DNA of 52,488 nt. Source: a virus. Every line of letters starts with the position of its first letter. Position 1 is the stretch's first letter. The translations under genes were made by a program, and so were the position numbers. Of this stretch, positions 10,075 to 34,973 are shown in pieces. The stretch covers positions 1-52,488 of IMG/VR virus record IMGVR_UViG_3300050132_000511; one strand, written 5' to 3'. The notes beneath the pieces were generated by a model. That model saw nothing but the letters and a program-made list of their open reading frames with translations. It was not told where the DNA came from and ran no database searches.

Positions 10075-10103
10075 TTTCTTCCCCTCATTTGAGGGCCAAA
10101 AAC

Positions 10104-11030
10104 ATGTCGACCGAGCTCGTCGATCCGATGGCCTCGGTCCGATCCTATCTCGCGGCCGAGAAATCCCAAAACACCAGGCGCGCGTATGCGGCCGATTGGG
10201 CCGACTTTACGACCTCGTGCGGCGTCGCCGGTTGTGCCCCCCTCCCGGCGACGCCCATCGATGTCGCCCGCTACCTGGCCCAGCTCGCCGACGGCGGGCT
10301 GAAGGCCTCGACCATCGAGCGGCGGGTCGCCGCGATCCGGTCGATCCACAAGGCGGCCGGCCTCGAGCCGCCGACCAACTCCGAAGGCGTCAAGGCTGTG
10401 ATGCGCGGGATTCGCCGCAGCATCGGCAAGCGCCAGGTCAAGAAGGCGCCGGCCACCGCCGAGGTGCTGCGGTCGGTCATCGATGCGCTGCCGGCCGGCC
10501 TCGCCGGGATCCGCGATCGCGCGATCCTGCTGGTCGGCTTCGCCGCGGCCCTGCGCCGTTCCGAGCTTGTTGACTTAAATGTCAACGACGTCGAATTCCG
10601 CCCGAAGGGCATGATGCTCGAGCTCGGCCAGACCAAGACCGACCAGGACGGCAAGGGCGTCAAAATTCCGGTACCGCGCGGCCGTGGGCTCAAGCCTGTG
10701 GACGCGCTCGAGGCCTGGCTGCAGGCGAGCGGCATCACGGACGGCCCCCTGTTCCGCGAAGTCGATCGCCACGGCCGGCTCGGCGCGCAGAGACTCTCCG
10801 ATCGTTCGGTCGCCCGCATCGTGAAACGCGCCGTTGCGGCCGCCGGCATCGATGAGAGTGTCTTCTCAGGGCACTCGCTGCGCGCCGGTTTCGTCACCAC
10901 GTCGCTCGATCGCAAGGTCGATGTGCTCAAGATCATGGGCATCACGCGGCATGTGAAGGTCGACACGCTGAAGGGCTACGATCGCCGCGAGGCGGCGTTC
11001 GACGATCACGCCGGCGAGGATTTTCTGTGA
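10104..11030 (+). CDS. Cre-like tyrosine recombinase
   Basis: 308 residues, complete. The N-terminal half aligns with P1 Cre: NTRRAYAADWADFTTSCG with HTWKMLLSVCRSWAAWCK, and AGLEPPTNSEGVKAVMRGIR with SGLPRPSDSNAVSLVMRRIR (comparison from memory of Cre). Catalytic residues: Arg151 (ALRRSEL), Lys178 (GQTKTD), His257 and Arg260 (SGHSLRAG), His283 (Trp315 in Cre) and Tyr292 (KGYDRR). ATG 10104 has GAGGG upstream. It is encoded between two 34-base lox-like sites in direct orientation and is distinct from the integrase at 1-1275. Likely roles: resolving dimers of a circular form, or excising its own cassette. Confidence 0.85.
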   Translation: MSTELVDPMASVRSYLAAEKSQNTRRAYAADWADFTTSCGVAGCAPLPATPIDVARYLAQLADGGLKASTIERRVAAIRSIHKAAGLEPPTNSEGVKAVMRGIRRSIGKRQVKKAPATAEVLRSVIDALPAGLAGIRDRAILLVGFAAALRRSELVDLNVNDVEFRPKGMMLELGQTKTDQDGKGVKIPVPRGRGLKPVDALEAWLQASGITDGPLFREVDRHGRLGAQRLSDRSVARIVKRAVAAAGIDESVFSGHSLRAGFVTTSLDRKVDVLKIMGITRHVKVDTLKGYDRREAAFDDHAGEDFL

Positions 11031-25469: not shown

Positions 25470-26015
25470 ATGGCCGATCCGGTCACCTTGATGGGCGCCT
25501 CGCTGGCGGTGAGTGCGATCGGCGGCGGCATGAGTGCGGCCGGCACGATCGCCGGCGGCAGCGCGGCCGCGCAGGCCGGCAAGCTGCAGCAGGCGGCGGC
25601 CTATTCGCAAGCCGACCAGCTCACCGAGAACGCCGCCGGCGAGCTCGCGGCGTCCCAGCGCACCATGCTCGACACCCGGGAAAAGACGCAACTGACCCAG
25701 GGCACGCTCGTGGCAAAGGCTGCGGGATCGGGGTTCAACGCCGGTACCGGCTCGATGCTCAACGACGCCGGCCAGATCGGCGCGCGCGGGCAAAACCAGG
25801 CGCTGATGGATGTCTTCAACGGGCAGAACGAAATGACCGGCACGCTCAACAAGGCCAACGCCGTGCGCTTCGGCGGCGACGTCGCAGCCCTCGAGGGGTC
25901 GCAGAAGCAGACCGCCGCGGATCTGTCGGCCGCGGGCACGATCGCCTCGACCGCGGGCAGCATGTTCAAGACTTACGGTGGTGCCGGCGGCAACCCCTAC
26001 ATCGCTTACGGCTGA
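25470..26015 (+). CDS. Internal virion protein, gp14-like (small core protein)
   Basis: 181 residues. An N-terminal glycine-zipper hydrophobic region (VSAIGGGMSAAGTIAGGSAA) that could insert into membranes, then a long Ala/Gln/Gly-rich helical part (GKLQQAAAYSQADQLTENAA). This is the composition and position of T7 gp14-like ejection proteins, which form the pore in the host envelope with the two large internal proteins that follow. It is directly followed by those genes, TGATG junction at 26015. Confidence 0.75.
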   Translation: MADPVTLMGASLAVSAIGGGMSAAGTIAGGSAAAQAGKLQQAAAYSQADQLTENAAGELAASQRTMLDTREKTQLTQGTLVAKAAGSGFNAGTGSMLNDAGQIGARGQNQALMDVFNGQNEMTGTLNKANAVRFGGDVAALEGSQKQTAADLSAAGTIASTAGSMFKTYGGAGGNPYIAYG

Positions 26016-29000
26016 TGGCAATCCTTCCCGGCGAACAGGATCTGGGCCGCACCCCCGCGGTGTCCGGCGATCGCGCCATCGGCGCGGCCGATGCTTCGGG
26101 CGCGGCCGTCGGCGCCGCGGCGATCGCGCAGGGCGCGACCAATCTCGGCAAAGGCATTTCCGAACTCGGCACAGATATCGGCGCGGTCGCGGGAGCCCAG
26201 TCGAGGTTCGAGCTGGCGCGCTGGAATTCGGATTATTTGACTAAGGAAACCCAGCTTCGCACCTCGCTGGCTCAGGATACCGATTACACCACACTGCCGA
26301 CGCGCTACCAGGAGCAGGCGACCAAGCTGCGGGATGCAGCCGCCGCCAATATCAGCACTCCCAGCGCGCGGCAGACCTTCCTGCAGAGCACCAACGTTTC
26401 GATCGCCCAGGGCGTCGAAGGCATGACAAGCCGGGCCCAGAAGATGGCGTCCGATGCTAACGGCGCCTGGACTTCGCAGACCAACAATACCCTCATCGAC
26501 CAGGCCACCGCGATCGACGATCCTGTCGAACGCGCCAAGTATATCGACGCCGGCATTGCCAACATCGATGCGCGCGTCGCGAAGGGTGAGATCGGCCCGA
26601 CCGAGGCGCTGGCTGCGAAGCAGGCCTTCGCGCATCAATACGTAGTAGCCAACGCTATCACCACTCAGGATCCGCAAGGGGCCCTGAACGAAGTGCGGGC
26701 CGCGCCGGGATCCGGTGACGCCGTCACCAACCGCATCCTGCAGATCGAAGGCACCGGCCAGAATGGCAAGTCGAGCGCTACCGGGACCGGCCAGTTCGTC
26801 GACGGCACCTGGCTCGACGAGATCAAGCGCAACCGGCCGGACCTCGCCGACGGCCGCACCGACGACGAATTGCTCGCGCTGCGCAACGATCCCACGCTGG
26901 CGCGGCAGATGACCGACACCTATCGCCAGGAGAACGTGGCCTCGCTGACCAAGCAGGGCATCCAGGCCACCGCAGGCAATCAATATCTGGCGCACTTCCT
27001 CGGGCCCGGTGGCGCGGCCGCGATGATCAAGGCCGACCCGACCATGCCGGCGATCGACGCCTTGACCGCTGCGCTCGGCGAGAAGAAGGCGCAGGCGATG
27101 GTCGACGCCAATCCGACCGTCCTCAACTCGCTGGCCGGCCACGTGGTCCAATGGGCTGACGGCAGGATGGGGGGCGCCGGCGCGCATGATTCGATTTACA
27201 GCAACTTGCCGCCAGGCTTGCGAGGTCAGGTCGCGCAGATGCTGCAAGAAAGGATCGACAAGCAGACCGCGACCGATACGTCGACATTCCAGACCAAGGT
27301 AGAGGACACGCTCGCCGAAGCCGGCCGCAACGGATCCGCGCAGCAGCCGGTCTCGCAGGCCGAATTCATCAAGGTGCTCGGCGGCACGAAGGGTCTGGAC
27401 GCCTATTCCGACTACACGCTCGACATGAAGCTGCGCAGCGATGTTAGCCAGGTCGCGCGGCTGACCCCGCAGCAGCAGAACGACCTCGTTAAGAGCTACG
27501 ATCCGAAGCCGGGCGAGGAGGGCTTCTCCGATCAGAACAAGCGCCAGGCGCAGCTGCAGGTCGCGATCCAGAAGGTACGCAAGGAACGCGACGACGATCC
27601 GGCGCAGTTCGCGATATCGCGCATTCCGAGCGTTAAGGATGCCTATGGCGCCTTCAGCAAGGTGCAGGCCGACCCGACCGCGCCGGCGGATGCCAAGCAG
27701 GCCGCCGCCCGCGACTTCGTCAACAAGACGGTTTCCGAGCAGCAGAAGGCCGGCGTCGCGCCCGACGCCGTCAAGATCCTGCCCGACGCCATGGCCAGCA
27801 AGTTCAACGATGCGGTCACCCATGCCGCCAGCTCGGACGATCCGAACGCGCGTACCGGCTTGATCAAGCTGGTGCAGGACCAGGCCGCGCTCTACGGCGA
27901 CAACTGGCCGCTGGTTTATCGCCAGCTCGCGCCCAAGGCGATCCCGGTGGTGCGCGCGATCGCCGCTGGCGCCGATACCACGGCGATGACGCGGCTGCTC
28001 AATCTCGGACCCGAAGAAAATCCGGCCGCGCTGCTCAAGGAGCAGAGCGAGACCAAGGCGAAAGACGTCCAGACCAATCTCAACACCGCGATGGCGCCGC
28101 TGCTGCAGAGCATGGTCGGCCGCCAGAAGGACCGCGACTTCGGCGATTATTACACCATGGCCAACAAGCTCGCTGCGCTATACGTGCGTGACGGCCTGCA
28201 GGCGCCGGAGGCCGCCACCAAGGCCTTCAACGACCTGATCGGCAACCGCTACGATTTCCGCGATACCTACCGGATCCCGAAATCGCCGGCCTATTCGGCC
28301 GACGACGTCCAGGCCGGCGCACTGGTGGCGAAAAGCCAGCTCGCCGCGACGATGGGTCCGGATGATTATCTTGCCAGGAACCGGCCGTTTCTAAAGCCTG
28401 GCGACCAGCAGTTCTCGACGCCGCTCGAGGCGTCGAATGAAAAATCGTTTCGCGACTGGGTCTCGAACAACAAGGTGCCCTTCGATCCGAACTCGCGGAC
28501 CGCCGACTACGATATGCGCGGGTTTTGGAAGACGGCGCAAAATCCCGAGGCGTGGAAACAGCTGCAGGCCTCTGGCAAAATTCCGACAGATATGGAGCCA
28601 CTCGGGACCCGCGTTGATCCGAACGACGGCAAACCGCACTTTCCCGACTACTGGAAGACGCCGTACCACCAGACATTCTCGAACGAGAGCCAGTGGGCGA
28701 ACGAGAGCGCACCGCATTGGACCGATGACGACAAATTGGTCTCGCCGGCCGGCAAGGTACTCTTCGACGACCGGGCCCCGAAGGCGTCAGCGCTTTTGGT
28801 CAAGCCCGCGATCGACGACATTGGAGGCCTTTCCGATGCCCGCGGCGATAGCGTGTCGAAGTTCAAGCGTGACGGCGTCTGGGTGACGTCTCCTCGCAAT
28901 GACGGGCTCAACCTGATGTACGGCGACAAGGCCGTGCGCGGCCAGGATGGCGCGCCAATGTTCGTGCCCTGGGGCCAGCTTGCCAGACTGGGCGGCTCTC

Positions 29001-29059
29001 CGGAGGCGCGCGCTGACGCGATGAAGCGCGCCACCCAGTTCTCGGAACAGACGCCGTGA
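26015..29059 (+). CDS. Internal virion protein with lytic transglycosylase domain
   Basis: 1014 residues. The N-terminal 200 residues are glycine- and alanine-rich helices (ASGAAVGAAAIAQGATNLGK). At about residues 235-345 a lysozyme-like transglycosylase domain is visible: NRILQIEGTGQNGKSSATGT, in which the Glu of QIEG is the expected catalytic acid, followed by GQF and NQYLAHFLGPGGAAAMIKAD, the GxxA/Y part of the fold. The rest is helical and charged. It would open peptidoglycan during DNA ejection. In T7 the transglycosylase is in gp16; here it is in the first of three large internal proteins. Confidence 0.8.
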   Translation: MAILPGEQDLGRTPAVSGDRAIGAADASGAAVGAAAIAQGATNLGKGISELGTDIGAVAGAQSRFELARWNSDYLTKETQLRTSLAQDTDYTTLPTRYQEQATKLRDAAAANISTPSARQTFLQSTNVSIAQGVEGMTSRAQKMASDANGAWTSQTNNTLIDQATAIDDPVERAKYIDAGIANIDARVAKGEIGPTEALAAKQAFAHQYVVANAITTQDPQGALNEVRAAPGSGDAVTNRILQIEGTGQNGKSSATGTGQFVDGTWLDEIKRNRPDLADGRTDDELLALRNDPTLARQMTDTYRQENVASLTKQGIQATAGNQYLAHFLGPGGAAAMIKADPTMPAIDALTAALGEKKAQAMVDANPTVLNSLAGHVVQWADGRMGGAGAHDSIYSNLPPGLRGQVAQMLQERIDKQTATDTSTFQTKVEDTLAEAGRNGSAQQPVSQAEFIKVLGGTKGLDAYSDYTLDMKLRSDVSQVARLTPQQQNDLVKSYDPKPGEEGFSDQNKRQAQLQVAIQKVRKERDDDPAQFAISRIPSVKDAYGAFSKVQADPTAPADAKQAAARDFVNKTVSEQQKAGVAPDAVKILPDAMASKFNDAVTHAASSDDPNARTGLIKLVQDQAALYGDNWPLVYRQLAPKAIPVVRAIAAGADTTAMTRLLNLGPEENPAALLKEQSETKAKDVQTNLNTAMAPLLQSMVGRQKDRDFGDYYTMANKLAALYVRDGLQAPEAATKAFNDLIGNRYDFRDTYRIPKSPAYSADDVQAGALVAKSQLAATMGPDDYLARNRPFLKPGDQQFSTPLEASNEKSFRDWVSNNKVPFDPNSRTADYDMRGFWKTAQNPEAWKQLQASGKIPTDMEPLGTRVDPNDGKPHFPDYWKTPYHQTFSNESQWANESAPHWTDDDKLVSPAGKVLFDDRAPKASALLVKPAIDDIGGLSDARGDSVSKFKRDGVWVTSPRNDGLNLMYGDKAVRGQDGAPMFVPWGQLARLGGSPEARADAMKRATQFSEQTP

Positions 29060-32000
29060 CCGATTACTTTTCGACGCCCGACGATCTCGGCGAGATCCGG
29101 CAATCCGACCTGCAGTCGTCGCTGGGCGAGAGCCTGGGTGCGCAGGCGGCCGACGCGCTGGACCCGAAGGATTCGCCCTCCGCCATGTGGCTGCTACGCC
29201 GGGCGCGCGAGGCGAGTGCCGGCGGTACCGACCTTGCTGTCGGCGCCGGCGGCGACGTCGACGCGTATTCCGGGCAGTCGCTGGAGGAGCGCCAGGCGGT
29301 GGTCGACGCTCAGCGCGCGGCGATCCCCGACACCTCGATCGACGACGCCAAGGCGCGGATCAAGCAGGAAGGCCTCGAGGGCCAGCTCAAGCTGCCCGAC
29401 CAGCCCAGCGTCAAGTCTCCCGTGCTGGATCTGATGATTGCCGAGGCCCATGAGCGCCGCGACCGCGAGGTGGCGATCGCCAAGGGGCCGCAGGGCTTTA
29501 TGCCCGGCGCGCTGGGCCTGATCACGTCGCTGGGCGCGGGGATGATCGACCCGGTCAACATGGCGGCTTTTTCCATTCCCGTGCTGGGCGAGGCCCGCAT
29601 GGGCAAGCTGATGGCGTCTGCCGGCGACAGCATCCTCAACCGCACCGGCGTCCGTATGTTACAGGGCGGCCTGCAGGGCGCCGTGGGCACGGCGGTGCTG
29701 CAGCCAGCCGACTGGTGGCTGCATACCCAGGACGGTCAGGATTACACGTTTGCCGACGCGCTCAAGAGCGTGGTGATGGGCGCCGGCATGGGCGCGGGGT
29801 TTCACGCCGCCGGCGGCCTGGTCGGCGATATCGCCTCCAAACGCCGCGGCGTACCGCTGGCGGGCTCGCCCGAGGATCTCCTGGTCAAGGGCCTGATGAC
29901 CGGCCGGCACGTGCCGGGCGACGCGCTGGCCGAGGAGGGTGTGACACCCGACCAGCTCGGCGCGGCCTTCGCGCCGCCGCAGGCCGAAGCCCCGCCAATC
30001 CAGCCCGAACCGCAGCCGCAGGCGTTCGAGCATCCGGCCCAGGTGATGGCGGATCTGCCGCCGGCAGCGCAGGAAGACGTCGTCAGGGCCTCCATCGCCG
30101 ACATTGCCGCCGATCGGCCGGTGCGCGCGGCCGAGATGCTGCAGATCGCCGCCGATCACAGCCCGCGCATCGCGGAGTCATTCGAGGCCTGGCACGGCTC
30201 GCCGCATGACATAGACCGGTTCGACAGTTCCAGGATCGGCACAGGCGAAGGCGCGCAAACCTACGGCCACGGACTTTACTTCGCCGAGAATGAGAAGGTC
30301 GCGACGCAATACGCCCGGAGCACGTCGGGCCGCGACTTCATCCGCAAGGCGCAGGAGCTCTACGACGAGCACGACAGTCCGGGCGATGCGCATGCCGCCA
30401 TCGTCGAAAGCAAGGACGTCACGCCCGGTCAAAAGCGGCTTTTGCTCGCGCTAGAAAAAGATGACTGGCTGGGCTTTGACTATCCGCACCAGGCAGTATC
30501 TGCCGCGTTGAGCGATCCCAATGGCAAGAACTGGGAGATGTCGCCGGAGACGCTGGACGCGATCAAGCACGTCGGCAACATGTACCGCGTTCGCATCAAC
30601 GCTCACCCCGATCACTTTCTCGATTGGGACAAGCCGCTAGGCAAACACCCGGAGCCGGTTCGTTCCAAGCTTCGCGCGGCCGGCTTCGACGATTCGCAGA
30701 CCGGCAAGGACATCTACCACTCCCTGGTGAAGTACCGGCCGGAGCAGGGCGGCGGCACGACGTCGGCTGGAATGAAGATATCCGACCTGGATGCGACGCC
30801 GGAGGCAGCGTCGGGCCGACTGAGGGCGACCGGCATCCATGGCATCAAATATCTCGACCAGGGATCGCGGGCCGGCATTCCAGATTTGGACACGATGCTT
30901 GCCGTGGCCAAAGCGCAGGATGAACTGGCAACAACGGCTGATCCCGTGCGCAGGAAAGAGCTTCACGCCGAGCTCGCCGCGCATGACGCGAAGCTACAGC
31001 CGACCCGCAACTTCGTCGTGTTCGACGACAAGCATATCGAGATCCTCGATCGCAACGGCGAGCCGGTGGCCAAGCCGTTCACCGAGGCGCTGCCGGGCAA
31101 TCCCAAGATCACGCTCGGCGCCGATCCGGACCTTGTCACCGCGCCGAAGCCGCGCGGCCGCGCCGCTGCCCATCCCGACACGCTTTCGCTCAATGAGCAC
31201 CTGGCCTCGCAAGGTGGCCTCCGTCCGGATCCCGAGCTCGAGGCGATCTATGGCAACAAGCGCGGGCCGTTCGTGCCGGGCTTCGGCCCGCTGATCCGCA
31301 AATCGGGCATGTCGCTCGACGACGCGCTCTCGTCCGCCAAGCAGCACGGCTACATGCAGGATCCCCACGATGTGGAGAACGGCACCGCCGGTGCCGGCGG
31401 CCGCACCAGCCACGGCCTGACGCCGAACGACCTCCTGGATCACCTCGACGCCGAGAACCGCGGCCAGAAGCTCTACAAGCCCGGCCATGTCGAGAAGACC
31501 AAATACGATCCCGACCAGGAAAAGCACGTCATCATGGGCGCGCTCGAGACCGAGTTGGAGAAGTCCGGCGCCGACGTGTCCGCGATCGATCCGAAGCTGC
31601 TCGATCGCACCGTGGAAATCGTCCACCGCGAAGGCGTGACGGACGTGCTCGACGCCTATGAACGTGCTATCATGGAGGACGAGGAGCGCTACAATGCCAT
31701 TGCCGATGCCCGACAATCCGATCCCGTCGCAGCCGACATCCCAGGCTTCGAGCGAAGCGATGACGCCGGAGCAGCACCTGGCGATGGTGGACGTGATCAG
31801 GGCGGCGATCGGCAAACCGGACGGCCCGACCAAAGCGGAGGGCGAGCGGATGATTCGCAACCATCAAGTCATGGCGCGCGCGCGGCAGCAGCAGCTGCAG
31901 ACCCCAGATGGCGCGAGCTCGCCGACGTAAAGCCGGCCGAGGACGCCCCTGACGTCATAGCCGAGTCCCGTGAAGCCGATCGCCTGGCCGAACCGGATTC

Positions 32001-32202
32001 GCTGGTTCCCGAAAAATCCCTGACCGCGCTGGAAAAGCAGGCCGCCGACGCCGAGGCGATCTGGCGCAAGCTCGAGCCAACGCTGACGGAGCAAGAGCGT
32101 ACCATGGTCAACGATGTGCTCGACCAGCTCAAGCTCGACAAGGAAGCCCGCGAAAAGGTCATCACCGATGGTGCAGCCTGTCTCGCGGCGGCGTTCGCAT
32201 AA
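29056..32202 (+). CDS. Large internal virion protein with ADP-ribosyltransferase domain
   Basis: 1048 residues. The N-terminal third resembles podovirus internal core proteins (helical, with PGALGLITSLGAGMIDPVNM hydrophobic segments). From about residue 376 a polyvalent ADP-ribosyltransferase-type domain begins: FEAWHGSPHDIDRFDSSRIG with the H-G motif, then GTGEGAQTYGHGLYFAENEK with the GHGLYFAE motif (catalytic Tyr), and near residue 654 NFVVFDDKHIEIL, typical of the end of this family. The C-terminal part is charged; residues about 885-965 are low-complexity G/D/R/Q-rich. It is likely injected with the DNA and may modify a host protein. The catalytic glutamate cannot be assigned with certainty. 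Confidence 0.8.
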   Translation: MTDYFSTPDDLGEIRQSDLQSSLGESLGAQAADALDPKDSPSAMWLLRRAREASAGGTDLAVGAGGDVDAYSGQSLEERQAVVDAQRAAIPDTSIDDAKARIKQEGLEGQLKLPDQPSVKSPVLDLMIAEAHERRDREVAIAKGPQGFMPGALGLITSLGAGMIDPVNMAAFSIPVLGEARMGKLMASAGDSILNRTGVRMLQGGLQGAVGTAVLQPADWWLHTQDGQDYTFADALKSVVMGAGMGAGFHAAGGLVGDIASKRRGVPLAGSPEDLLVKGLMTGRHVPGDALAEEGVTPDQLGAAFAPPQAEAPPIQPEPQPQAFEHPAQVMADLPPAAQEDVVRASIADIAADRPVRAAEMLQIAADHSPRIAESFEAWHGSPHDIDRFDSSRIGTGEGAQTYGHGLYFAENEKVATQYARSTSGRDFIRKAQELYDEHDSPGDAHAAIVESKDVTPGQKRLLLALEKDDWLGFDYPHQAVSAALSDPNGKNWEMSPETLDAIKHVGNMYRVRINAHPDHFLDWDKPLGKHPEPVRSKLRAAGFDDSQTGKDIYHSLVKYRPEQGGGTTSAGMKISDLDATPEAASGRLRATGIHGIKYLDQGSRAGIPDLDTMLAVAKAQDELATTADPVRRKELHAELAAHDAKLQPTRNFVVFDDKHIEILDRNGEPVAKPFTEALPGNPKITLGADPDLVTAPKPRGRAAAHPDTLSLNEHLASQGGLRPDPELEAIYGNKRGPFVPGFGPLIRKSGMSLDDALSSAKQHGYMQDPHDVENGTAGAGGRTSHGLTPNDLLDHLDAENRGQKLYKPGHVEKTKYDPDQEKHVIMGALETELEKSGADVSAIDPKLLDRTVEIVHREGVTDVLDAYERAIMEDEERYNAIADARQSDPVAADIPGFERSDDAGAAPGDGGRDQGGDRQTGRPDQSGGRADDSQPSSHGARAAAAAADPRWRELADVKPAEDAPDVIAESREADRLAEPDSLVPEKSLTALEKQAADAEAIWRKLEPTLTEQERTMVNDVLDQLKLDKEAREKVITDGAACLAAAFA
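31694..31930 (+). CDS. Nested gene inside the ART virion protein gene
   Basis: A 78-residue frame in a different reading frame from the host gene, with its own AGGAG seven bases before the ATG. Its protein (TPEQHLAMVDVIRAAIGKPD, then TKAEGERMIRNHQVMARARQ) is of ordinary helical composition. The host-gene frame over the same bases is low-complexity (GGRDQGGDRQTGRPDQSGGR), which suggests that this nested frame is the constrained one. Function unknown; it may be expressed by internal initiation. Confidence 0.5.
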   Translation: MPLPMPDNPIPSQPTSQASSEAMTPEQHLAMVDVIRAAIGKPDGPTKAEGERMIRNHQVMARARQQQLQTPDGASSPT

Positions 32203-34973
32203 TGGCCCGATCTCGCAAGGACTGTTTCGACGAGATCGCCGGCAAGACCGGCAAGTCGCGCGCTGAGGTCCAGGACGCGCTCGACGAGATCCTCAACCGC
32301 GCCGACGGCTACGAGAACGACGGGATGGACCGCGACGCGGCCTACGACCGGGCGCGCGACGAATTCCTCAAGGAGGCGGCCGACAACTACGCGCTGCAGC
32401 GCCGCGGCGCCATCCTCGACATGCGCAAGGAAATCGCGCGGCACCGTTTTTATGGCGCTGCGGCCGAGTCGATCAAGTCGCTGGTGCCGAAGTTCGCGGT
32501 CAAGGCCGTGCGCCTGGCGTTCGAGGCCAAGCTGGTAGGCTCCAATCTGCCGTTCGCCCGCGGCCGGCTGTCGGTCGACGCGCAATATGTGGCGCTGAGG
32601 CGCAAGATCGTCGGCGGCTTTTCCGATGATTTGCGCCGCGGCGGCCTGCTGAAGATCTTCGCCAGCCGCGCGCTCGAGGACAAGTGGACCGACGAGCTGT
32701 TCGAGATCAACCGCGGCCGCGACGGCAATCCGGGCATCACCAAGGATGCCCAGGCGCTGGCGATCGCCAAGGTCGTGCACAAGTGGCAGAAGGTCTCGAT
32801 CGACACCCTCAACCGCGAGGGCGCGTGGATCCGCAGCTATTCCGGCTACATCACCCGCACCTCGCACGATGCCGACAAGATCCGCGCCGCCGGCGCCGAG
32901 AAGTGGATCAACGAGACGCTGCCGCGGCTCGACCTGAAACGCACCTTCGGAACTGCCGATCGCCAGGCGGTGCGGGACGCGCTGTTCGATATGTGGACGC
33001 CGATGATGTCCGGCGTGCATTACGATTACGGCCGCCCGATCGACGAGCCGATGTATCCGAACGTCGCCAAGCGCGCCTCCGCGACCCGCGAGCTGCACTT
33101 CAAGGATGGCCCAGGCTGGCGGGCCTACAACAAGGATTACGGCAACGCCACCGCGACCTATACGGTGGTGCAGGGGCTTTCGACGGCGGCGCGCCGCGCC
33201 GCGCTGATGAAGGAATTCGGCACGCGGCCGCGCGAGGCCTACGAGCGCGACAAGGCCTTCGTGCTGGCGACCCTGCAGAATGAAAGCAAGGCCCTATCGT
33301 CGAAGTTCAACGCGCTAGACCAGGCCTTGAATTCGCCCGGCGCCGACGCCGCGGCAAAAGAGAAGATCACGGCGCAGATGGACGGGCTGCGGGCCAAGAC
33401 AGCCGCTTCCTCCGGCGAGCTCGAGGACTTCGAGAACGGCCAGCTCTGGCTCGACAACCGTTTCGCCCAGATCGACGGCTCCAGCCAGAAGCCGGTCAAC
33501 CGCGCCCGGGCCAATACCGTCGCCAACATCATGGCGGTGCAGCGGCTCTCGAAGCTCGGCAACATCTTCGCCACGCACTTTGCATCATTGCCGACCAAGG
33601 CCGCGGAGGCGCGCTATTGGGGTATTCCGTTCGCACAGCGTTACGCCTCGTTGTTTGAGGGCTTCACGCAAGGCGCGGAGGGTTCGGAGAAACGCGCAGC
33701 GCTCGAGGCCACGCTGGTGGCAGCCGAACACGACATCGGCCAGCAGATGAGCGCCTATGACGTCGCCGACGCGCCGGCGGGTTGGCTCGGCCAGGCCGAA
33801 TCGACCTTCTTCAATCTGACCGGCGTTAACGCCGTGATCGACAACCAGCGCGGCGGTGCGGAAGCGATGTTCGCCTCGCATCTCGGATCCAAGCGCGGCA
33901 TGGCCTGGGCTGATATCGGACGCAAGGAGCAGCGCGTCATGCGCGGCTTCGGCATCGGCGAGGCCGAATGGAAGGCGCTGCATGGCGTCGAATGGACCAA
34001 GATCGGCGACCGCACCTTCCTTTTTCCGTCCGACGCGCTGAAGCTCAGCGACAACCAGGTCAAGGCCTATATCGACGAGGCACGGCCGCCGGGCAGCGGC
34101 GACACCCGATTCATGGGCCATGGCGAGGCCGATATTGCAAAAGCCCGCGAGGATCTCGGGCTGCAGCTGGCGTCGACCTATACCGACCGCGCCGGCTACG
34201 CCATTCCGATGCCGTCGGCCCGGATCCGCGCCATCCTGTTCGGCAAGAACTTCGAGCCCGGCTCGGCGCTCAACATCGCGCTGAAGCTTTTCTACCAGTT
34301 CAAGATCTGGCCGGCCGACATGATCACCCGCGCCTGGGGCCGCGAGGTCTACGGCACGATCGGCGACGGCCGGATGGACCGCTGGGGCGGCCGCGCCGAG
34401 ACCGCGGCCGCGGCGATTCTCTTTGGTGTGTTCGCCGAAGGCGTGCGCGATCTGATCAAGGGCAATAATCCGATCCCGAAACTGGCGCAGCATCCCTTTG
34501 CCGCGATCGCCGCCGGCGCGCAGCGCTCCGGCATGGGCTCGATCGTCGGCGATTTCCTCCTGGGCCAGTTCGATCGCCACGGCCTGTCGGCCGCGGCCAA
34601 CACGCTGGGTCCCACATTCGGCCAGATCGACGATCTAGCCGAGCTGATCCACGCCGGCGGCCGCACCAAGGACGGCATGTTCTCGGGCGCCGCGATGCGC
34701 GAGCGGGGCGCGACCGCGCTCAAGATGGTCAAGAGCAACACGCCCTTCATGAACCTCTGGTTCACACATCACGCCACCGACGTGCTGATCTGGCATCGCC
34801 TGCAAGAGGCGATCTCGCCCGGCTACCTGCAGCGCACCGAGCAGCGCCAGAAAGACCTTGAAGGCACCTCGTTCGTGATCGCGCCGTCGAAGGCGGATCA
34901 GTTCGTCACCGGCAAGCGCCCGATGTTCTCTCCGACCAGCCGAGCGCCGCTGGGCTGGAACCTCGGCAACTAA
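32202..34973 (+). CDS. Large internal virion (ejection) protein
   Basis: 923 residues, TAATG overlap with the gene before. Third of the three big internal proteins. Helical throughout, with EFLKEAADNYALQRRGAILD and long coiled regions (FNALDQALNSPGADAAAKEK) and no obvious enzyme motif. The C-terminal part has hydrophobic segments (AAAILFGVFAEGVRDLI, AAIAAGAQRSGMGSIVGDFL) suited for membrane insertion. It occupies the position of T7 gp16 but lacks that protein's transglycosylase, which is in the 26015 gene instead. Confidence 0.75.
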   Translation: MARSRKDCFDEIAGKTGKSRAEVQDALDEILNRADGYENDGMDRDAAYDRARDEFLKEAADNYALQRRGAILDMRKEIARHRFYGAAAESIKSLVPKFAVKAVRLAFEAKLVGSNLPFARGRLSVDAQYVALRRKIVGGFSDDLRRGGLLKIFASRALEDKWTDELFEINRGRDGNPGITKDAQALAIAKVVHKWQKVSIDTLNREGAWIRSYSGYITRTSHDADKIRAAGAEKWINETLPRLDLKRTFGTADRQAVRDALFDMWTPMMSGVHYDYGRPIDEPMYPNVAKRASATRELHFKDGPGWRAYNKDYGNATATYTVVQGLSTAARRAALMKEFGTRPREAYERDKAFVLATLQNESKALSSKFNALDQALNSPGADAAAKEKITAQMDGLRAKTAASSGELEDFENGQLWLDNRFAQIDGSSQKPVNRARANTVANIMAVQRLSKLGNIFATHFASLPTKAAEARYWGIPFAQRYASLFEGFTQGAEGSEKRAALEATLVAAEHDIGQQMSAYDVADAPAGWLGQAESTFFNLTGVNAVIDNQRGGAEAMFASHLGSKRGMAWADIGRKEQRVMRGFGIGEAEWKALHGVEWTKIGDRTFLFPSDALKLSDNQVKAYIDEARPPGSGDTRFMGHGEADIAKAREDLGLQLASTYTDRAGYAIPMPSARIRAILFGKNFEPGSALNIALKLFYQFKIWPADMITRAWGREVYGTIGDGRMDRWGGRAETAAAAILFGVFAEGVRDLIKGNNPIPKLAQHPFAAIAAGAQRSGMGSIVGDFLLGQFDRHGLSAAANTLGPTFGQIDDLAELIHAGGRTKDGMFSGAAMRERGATALKMVKSNTPFMNLWFTHHATDVLIWHRLQEAISPGYLQRTEQRQKDLEGTSFVIAPSKADQFVTGKRPMFSPTSRAPLGWNLGN

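Follow-up and report, generated by a model that had tools for sequence, protein, structure and literature searches.

The viral DNA analyzed here, positions 1 to 52,488 of IMG/VR record IMGVR_UViG_3300050132_000511 (the window, 52,488 nucleotides), carries an open reading frame (ORF) at 29056-32202 on the + strand, with a GTG start, for a protein of 1,048 residues that we call the slot protein. Comparison with its relatives, which are coded L### and are mostly metagenomic contigs, showed that a predicted ADP-ribosyltransferase (ART) domain sits in a swappable cargo slot of this gp16-family protein. The slot protein and the protein encoded next to it, p684 (phrog_684), each have a single cysteine, placed at the ends of the two chains that face each other in the gene order. 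The ORF is a genuine gene. It overlaps both neighbors by 1 to 4 nucleotides, at the stop codon of the ORF before it and at the start codon of the one that follows, and has full-length homologs on other viral contigs.

The gp16-type core and the cysteines of the ejection set

In the window, the genes run in the order terminase, portal, tail tube B, gp14-like protein, lysozyme-type internal protein, slot protein, p684, and tail fiber. The same order of the ejection cluster was found in most relatives with readable flanks and in podoviruses cultured on Vibrio, Pseudomonas, and Pelagibacter; isolates with this gene pair include Vibrio phage 1.182.O (host V. breoganii), Pelagibacter phage HTVC035P, and Pseudomonas phage vB_PaeP_Tr60_Ab31. 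The N-terminal scaffold core of the slot protein (residues 89-266, phrog_3003; 29320-29853, +) had no Pfam name, and we compared a profile built from 46 slot-protein cores with profiles of T7 gp16 by hhalign. The core profile matched the T7 gp16-core profile at gp16 residues ~279-410 with a probability of 95-96% and a score of 52-57, and the controls scored at most 4.7 (30 column shuffles, alignment A8) and 7.4 (reversed profile). Against the full-length gp16 profile the probability was 88.9% and the score 53.6, with shuffles reaching at most 20.6. As the core match lies far above the controls, we assign the slot protein, by its core only, to the gp16 family of ejection proteins. The transglycosylase domain is not on this chain and sits on the preceding ORF (26015-29059). 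According to passages of a review (PMC8954989), the P22 and Sf6 homologs are also without a transglycosylase domain, and we therefore treat it as variable and claim only the gp16-type core.

The slot protein of the window has 1 cysteine in 1,048 residues, C1042 (32179-32181, +), which is invariant at the C terminus of the family. A cysteine lies within the last 14 residues of all 46 distinct full-length slot proteins (403 to 1,825 residues long), and none occurs among the 47,156 residues between residue 61 and a point 20 residues before the end (near-copies included), compared with 0.44% in the other ORFs of the same loci. The next ejection or virion protein, p684 (923 residues; 32202-34973, +), has C8 (32223-32225, +) as its sole cysteine and as the predicted disulfide partner of C1042; in other loci the N-terminal cysteine of p684 is the last residue of MTPC, MADKC, MIKC, or MAxxDC, and past the first ~25 residues there is none in 27,127. 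The lysozyme/transglycosylase-type internal virion protein (26015-29059, +) and the gp14-like internal virion protein (phrog_418; 25470-26015, +) are free of cysteine in the window and across the loci (0 of 16,992 and 0 of 2,390 residues, respectively), and tail tube B has 143 in 13,413. No cysteine was found in T7 gp15 and gp16 or in gp16 of four other T7-like phages.

A second sample, collected with p684 as bait, gave 41 distinct split loci that partly overlap the first sample. All of their slot proteins have the conserved C-terminal cysteine, and all of their p684 proteins have the N-terminal one, except for one with an unplaceable start. Extra cysteines were seen in L229 and L230, in the latter within an over-extended frame. 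In L229 and L130, the slot-protein C terminus has a second cysteine near the conserved one (CIDGAECLAQAASG), which breaks the single-cysteine rule. Two loci, L022:5743-9369 and L161:5818-12504, have the slot protein and the p684 ortholog fused in one ORF, and neither fused ORF contains a cysteine. The fused ORF of L161 also carries a RadC/JAB domain, which is listed only in polyvalent proteins of conjugative elements (Iyer 2017, PMC5512222).

The simplest reading of this distribution is that the ejected set tolerates exactly one disulfide, which would join the chain ends that fusion joins covalently. A fuller reading is that of a split gp16-type ejection protein whose two chains are held by one conserved slot-p684 disulfide in an otherwise cysteine-free machine, where one chain also has an exchangeable effector slot, so that this enzyme-bearing chain could be freed once the disulfide is reduced in the host cytoplasm; we see the odds of this reading as even. 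The best-surviving alternative, which we place appreciably below that, is that the terminal cysteines serve separately, in homodimer crosslinks, at a shared metal site, or in docking to the portal or tail. T7-like phages manage without terminal cysteines, and there are only two fused counter-examples, as this alternative would allow. It accounts less well for the position of both cysteines at exactly those chain ends that become linked when the genes are fused, and for their co-occurrence in the examined split loci and joint disappearance from both fused loci.

With T7 gp16 (internal virion protein D) and the podoviral ejectosome, the slot protein has in common the core at ~279-410, the gene order, and the lack of cysteine in the rest of the chain. 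It differs from T7 gp16 in having the transglycosylase on the preceding protein, a chain split from p684 with one terminal cysteine on each part, and an effector slot. Three independent lines, namely, gene order, profile homology of the core to gp16, and the cysteine absence shared with T7 gp15 and gp16, support the assignment of the slot protein to the ejection machinery, from which we infer ejection itself. The same lines support the proposal, made earlier in a sequence-only reading of this DNA, that the ART lies within an ejected virion protein.

The ADP-ribosyltransferase domain

That reading had also placed an ART domain in the ORF, which was confirmed by Pfam, homologs, invariant motifs, and a structure model. 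The domain spans residues 376-668 (30181-31059, +). Pfam ART-PolyVal (PF18760) matches residues 379-424 (E = 2.5e-5, 25.5 bits), and the scores of 25.5-28.7 bits stay under the curated gathering cutoff of 31.2; the match is partial and below the cutoff because the domain is split by a long insert lying between its second conserved block and its third. When scanned alone, 62 of 67 homologous domains matched PF18760 at E ≤ 0.001, and in the cultured Vibrio phage 1.182.O a full-length ART-PolyVal follows the same core with 64 bits, above the Pfam cutoff. The model made from 67 sequences (pLDDT 89.5, pTM 0.83) matched ART-PolyVal and polyvalent-protein entries in BFVD, with E values of 1e-14 to 8e-6 for the named ART-PolyVal entries. 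A CTPR match in the PDB search was discarded as a helical-repeat artifact. Scans with PADLOC and NCBIfam gave no match, and the ART of Vibrio phage 1.182.O used as a seed gave no further loci. By sequence, invariant motifs, and model, the ART assignment holds; we class the domain as ART-PolyVal type, in a large-insert subtype, and predict that it is an NAD-dependent enzyme.

Conservation was read over 74 homologs, the window included. H380, E398, Y408, D601, R605, and N652 are invariant in all 74, with the window keeping each of them, and the pocket motifs GTGEGAQ, GLYFA, LDWDK, and KYLDQGSR are invariant or nearly so across these diverged sequences. The histidine of H-x-[ST] and the strand-2 tyrosine are both present: H380 (30193-30195, +), the His of HGS in strand 1, and Y408 (30277-30279, +), the Tyr of GLYFA in strand 2, lie on model strands 6-12 and 37-40. 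PARP1 has the triad HGS/YFA/YNE (PMC7955679), and an H-Y-D configuration is reported for polyvalent ARTs (Iyer et al. 2017, PMC5512222). Three motifs had been called typical of polyvalent ARTs. HGSPHDIDRF, which begins at H380, and GTGEGAQTYGHGLYFAE, residues 395-411, kept that standing; the terminal FVVFDDKHIEIL (residues 653-664), with FVVFDD, corresponds by motif to the PARP strand with the catalytic Glu and adjoins the column of that residue, which here is the invariant Asn N652 (31009-31011, +) in place of the Glu of YNE. The best acidic candidate for the third catalytic residue is D601 (30856-30858, +), the invariant Asp of GIKYLDQGSR. Two compact ARTs that occupy this slot in other loci also have an Asp at the aligned position, and D601 lies at the end of model strand 226-230, where strand numbering is ambiguous with respect to the Asp-in-strand-5 criterion (Iyer 2017). 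We regard D601 as the likely, but not settled, third catalytic residue.

In a pair of related phages, dN of the ART was 0.10 and dS 1.01 (dN/dS about 0.1), and by this measure the domain is under strong purifying selection there. It is unlikely that the domain is no longer an enzyme and binds NAD or a host protein, or is structural filler. Such a loss would suit the Asn at the PARP-Glu position, which extends across the whole large-type family, the lack of a PDB structural match for the ART models, and the empty-slot relatives L030 and L031, which indicate that the domain is dispensable for the machine. It fits poorly with H, Y, D, and the pocket motifs staying invariant or nearly so, with the low dN/dS, and with the alternative slot cargoes, which are also enzyme families.

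A slightly smaller likelihood attaches to an undelivered ART enzyme whose action falls late in the producing cell or is directed at rival phages, its position in a virion protein being incidental. As part of the late structural cluster, the slot gene would give much protein in the producing cell. Against this, the ART is an in-frame part of a gp16-family protein and, like the rest of the ejection set, is without cysteine, and large-type ART-PolyVal domains of other phage contigs also lack cysteine (0 in 20,461 residues, slot ARTs included). On other phage contigs (L041-L120), 59 ART-PolyVal-type domains contain no cysteine, and the ORFs that hold them have 0.04% cysteine versus 0.75% in neighboring ORFs. 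This would be expected of proteins that have to cross the oxidizing periplasm, which may be the reason for the exclusion. We rejected the idea that cysteine is scarcer in slot ARTs than in the other viral ARTs of the subtype, as there was no difference and all values were zero.

The window ART shares with ART-PolyVal/Tox-ART-HYD2 of polyvalent proteins (PF18760; PMC5512222) the HGS and GLYFA motifs, the invariant Asp candidate, and a virion-gene context. It differs as a large-insert subtype below the Pfam cutoff and in its setting, since known ART-PolyVal domains are found in N4-like RNA polymerase, MuF, or giant multi-enzyme proteins. The comparison with T4 Alt made in the sequence-only reading stood for delivery and timing, Alt being a virion-borne ART delivered with the DNA and acting early, as predicted here. 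It failed for the enzyme: Alt is a separate head protein of another, R-S-E clade (PMC5512222), and the window ART, fused to an ejection machine, is of the H-Y-D type, with H380 and Y408 and no R-S-E active site. Sulfitobacter phage phiGT1 has the same ART subtype in phiGT1_5 (QLB38217.1), which is 33% identical over residues 376-668 and, unlike the window ART, is a separate protein encoded between the portal and scaffold genes. A 920-residue protein of Burkholderia phage Bp-AMP4 (Autographivirales), BFVD entry A0A0A8KXG5, matched the ART model by structure (E = 2.7e-11) and may, on that model, be another ART in a T7-type virion protein.

The exchangeable cargo slot

The core is retained by the relatives, most of which also have a short PRIAES-ending segment and the C-terminal part; the stretch between varies, a polymorphism that the sequence-only reading had not seen. 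In the window, alignment with the relatives places the segment VMADLPPAAQED..AADHSPRIAES (residues ~330-375; 30043-30180, +) directly before the cargo, and it persists in relatives with different or absent cargo. A module beginning SLNEHLASQGG (residues ~709-880; 31180-31695, +) lies 3' of the cargo and is moved or lost in some relatives, and a conserved C-terminal segment (residues 930-1048; 31843-32199, +) ends in DGAACLAAAFA.

The cargo is an ART in the window, L002-L005, L007, L017, L019, L033, L135, L170, and Vibrio phage 1.182.O. It is a PBECR3 RNase in L006 (1.2e-21), LPD3 in L009, ddrB-ParB with a weak RelA/SpoT match in L163, a weak GNAT match in L167, and a RadC domain in L161; an HExxH motif is present in L009, L008, L012, L021, and L027. 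In L030 and L031 the slot is empty, with about 12 residues between the flanks. The cargo label "none" stands for no recognized domain and does not prove emptiness. Polyvalent proteins combine several unrelated enzymatic domains in one polypeptide, and the slot protein of the window has one recognized enzymatic domain; L019, L021, and L163 have two. In L019:5929-8463, the ART cargo is followed in the same slot by a weak GNAT-like acetyltransferase domain. Module order is shuffled in L033:5023-7926, where an SLxEFIA module precedes the ART, and in L027:2365-6573, where the PRIAES segment is 3' of the zincin.

On a tree of the core only, no fewer than 14 changes are needed to explain the cargo labels and no fewer than 8 to explain ART, and well-supported branches demand at least 6 of the latter. 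The RNase-bearing L006 branches as sister to the window and L004 together (support 99/91). The window and L004 are 85% identical in the core and 48% in the ART, and the window and L135 are 46% and 54% identical, respectively. This discordance between ART and scaffold identity points to cargo exchange. A topological proof of ART exchange between the window and L004 was dropped (approximately unbiased [AU] test, p = 0.49), and the identity discordance alone stands. Assembly chimeras or ordinary indel drift are highly improbable sources of the differences in the slot, even with relatives that are mostly metagenomic contigs, given that flanks and neighbors are conserved (p684 is 81-83% identical among the window, L004, and L006, whose cargoes are an ART, a diverged ART, and an RNase) and that the cultured Vibrio phage has its full-length ART-PolyVal after the same core.

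Precedents exist for virion-borne ARTs, such as T4 Alt, and for ARTs carried as cargo by polyvalent proteins or by N4-like virion polymerases, and passages of the review cited above (PMC8954989) describe domain swapping in ejection proteins for the lysozyme domain only. A literature search of openly licensed papers, mostly by title and abstract, turned up neither an ART within a T7-type internal virion protein nor an ejection-protein disulfide, and this incomplete search gave no description of a gp16-type slot with exchangeable effectors or of the cysteine pairing.

Proposed mechanism and significance

The window has a tyrosine recombinase/integrase at 10089-11030 (+; Pfam, 8.5e-16), and the phage is therefore probably temperate. 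A tRNA-Gly (TCC) lies at 2850-2928 (-; ARAGORN and Rfam). The sole contig of the genome collection with the scaffold, L036 (Pseudolabrys metagenome-assembled genome contig JAQSCR010000515.1; 65% identity), hints at alphaproteobacterial hosts.

Starting from the observed homologies, conserved catalytic residues, slot polymorphism, and cysteine pattern, we consider it probable that this gene of a temperate podovirus specifies an ejection protein with a gp16-type core and an ART-PolyVal effector as cargo, which is packaged, ejected, stapled by a disulfide, and ADP-ribosylates a host macromolecule early. By its homology, the slot protein would be packaged in the head and ejected with the gp14-like, lysozyme-type, and p684 proteins to form a DNA conduit. 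The covarying C1042 and C8 would form a disulfide that makes the two chains equal to a single-chain gp16. The ART might then reach the cytoplasm, perhaps freed by reduction of the disulfide, and, going by its conserved residues, would use NAD+ to ADP-ribosylate a host macromolecule as infection begins, which could help takeover or counter-defense. By the precedent of the ART-PolyVal/PARP-like clade, the predicted target is most likely a host protein; it has been proposed that host proteins are modified by polyvalent ARTs as soon as infection starts (PMC5512222).

Several points weigh against this explanation. The disulfide is argued from conservation and from only two fused loci, both of which are cut by a contig end. 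The p684 protein gave no match to T7 gp16 above shuffles, and its reading by sequence as the C-terminal part of gp16 was set aside; its place as half of a split gp16 is positional. Foldseek against the PDB returned no solved ART for the 8-sequence or the 67-sequence model, and sequence and fold searches of the PDB found no solved homolog of the ART. The assignment of the third catalytic residue is still provisional, with Asn at the PARP-Glu position. A single ART origin with fast change is not rejected by the AU test of the window versus L004.

In disulfide-linked two-chain (A-B) toxins, the enzyme chain is tethered by one disulfide that can be opened in the reducing cytosol, as predicted here for the slot protein. 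The phage proteins differ in having no homology to these toxins, in delivery from phage to bacterium, and in that the cysteine staple is also present in forms without recognized cargo.

The cysteine staple is the newest element of the finding and the easiest to test. If true, absence of cysteine would be a sequence signature of ejected proteins, and which phage proteins enter the cell could be read from sequence as those without cysteine save a two-residue staple; the staple would make the pair a phage analog of disulfide-linked two-chain toxins. A defined cargo slot in a T7-type machine would allow effector delivery at the start of infection to be studied in tractable podoviruses, and the target of an early-acting ART could reveal a host process that phages must change first.

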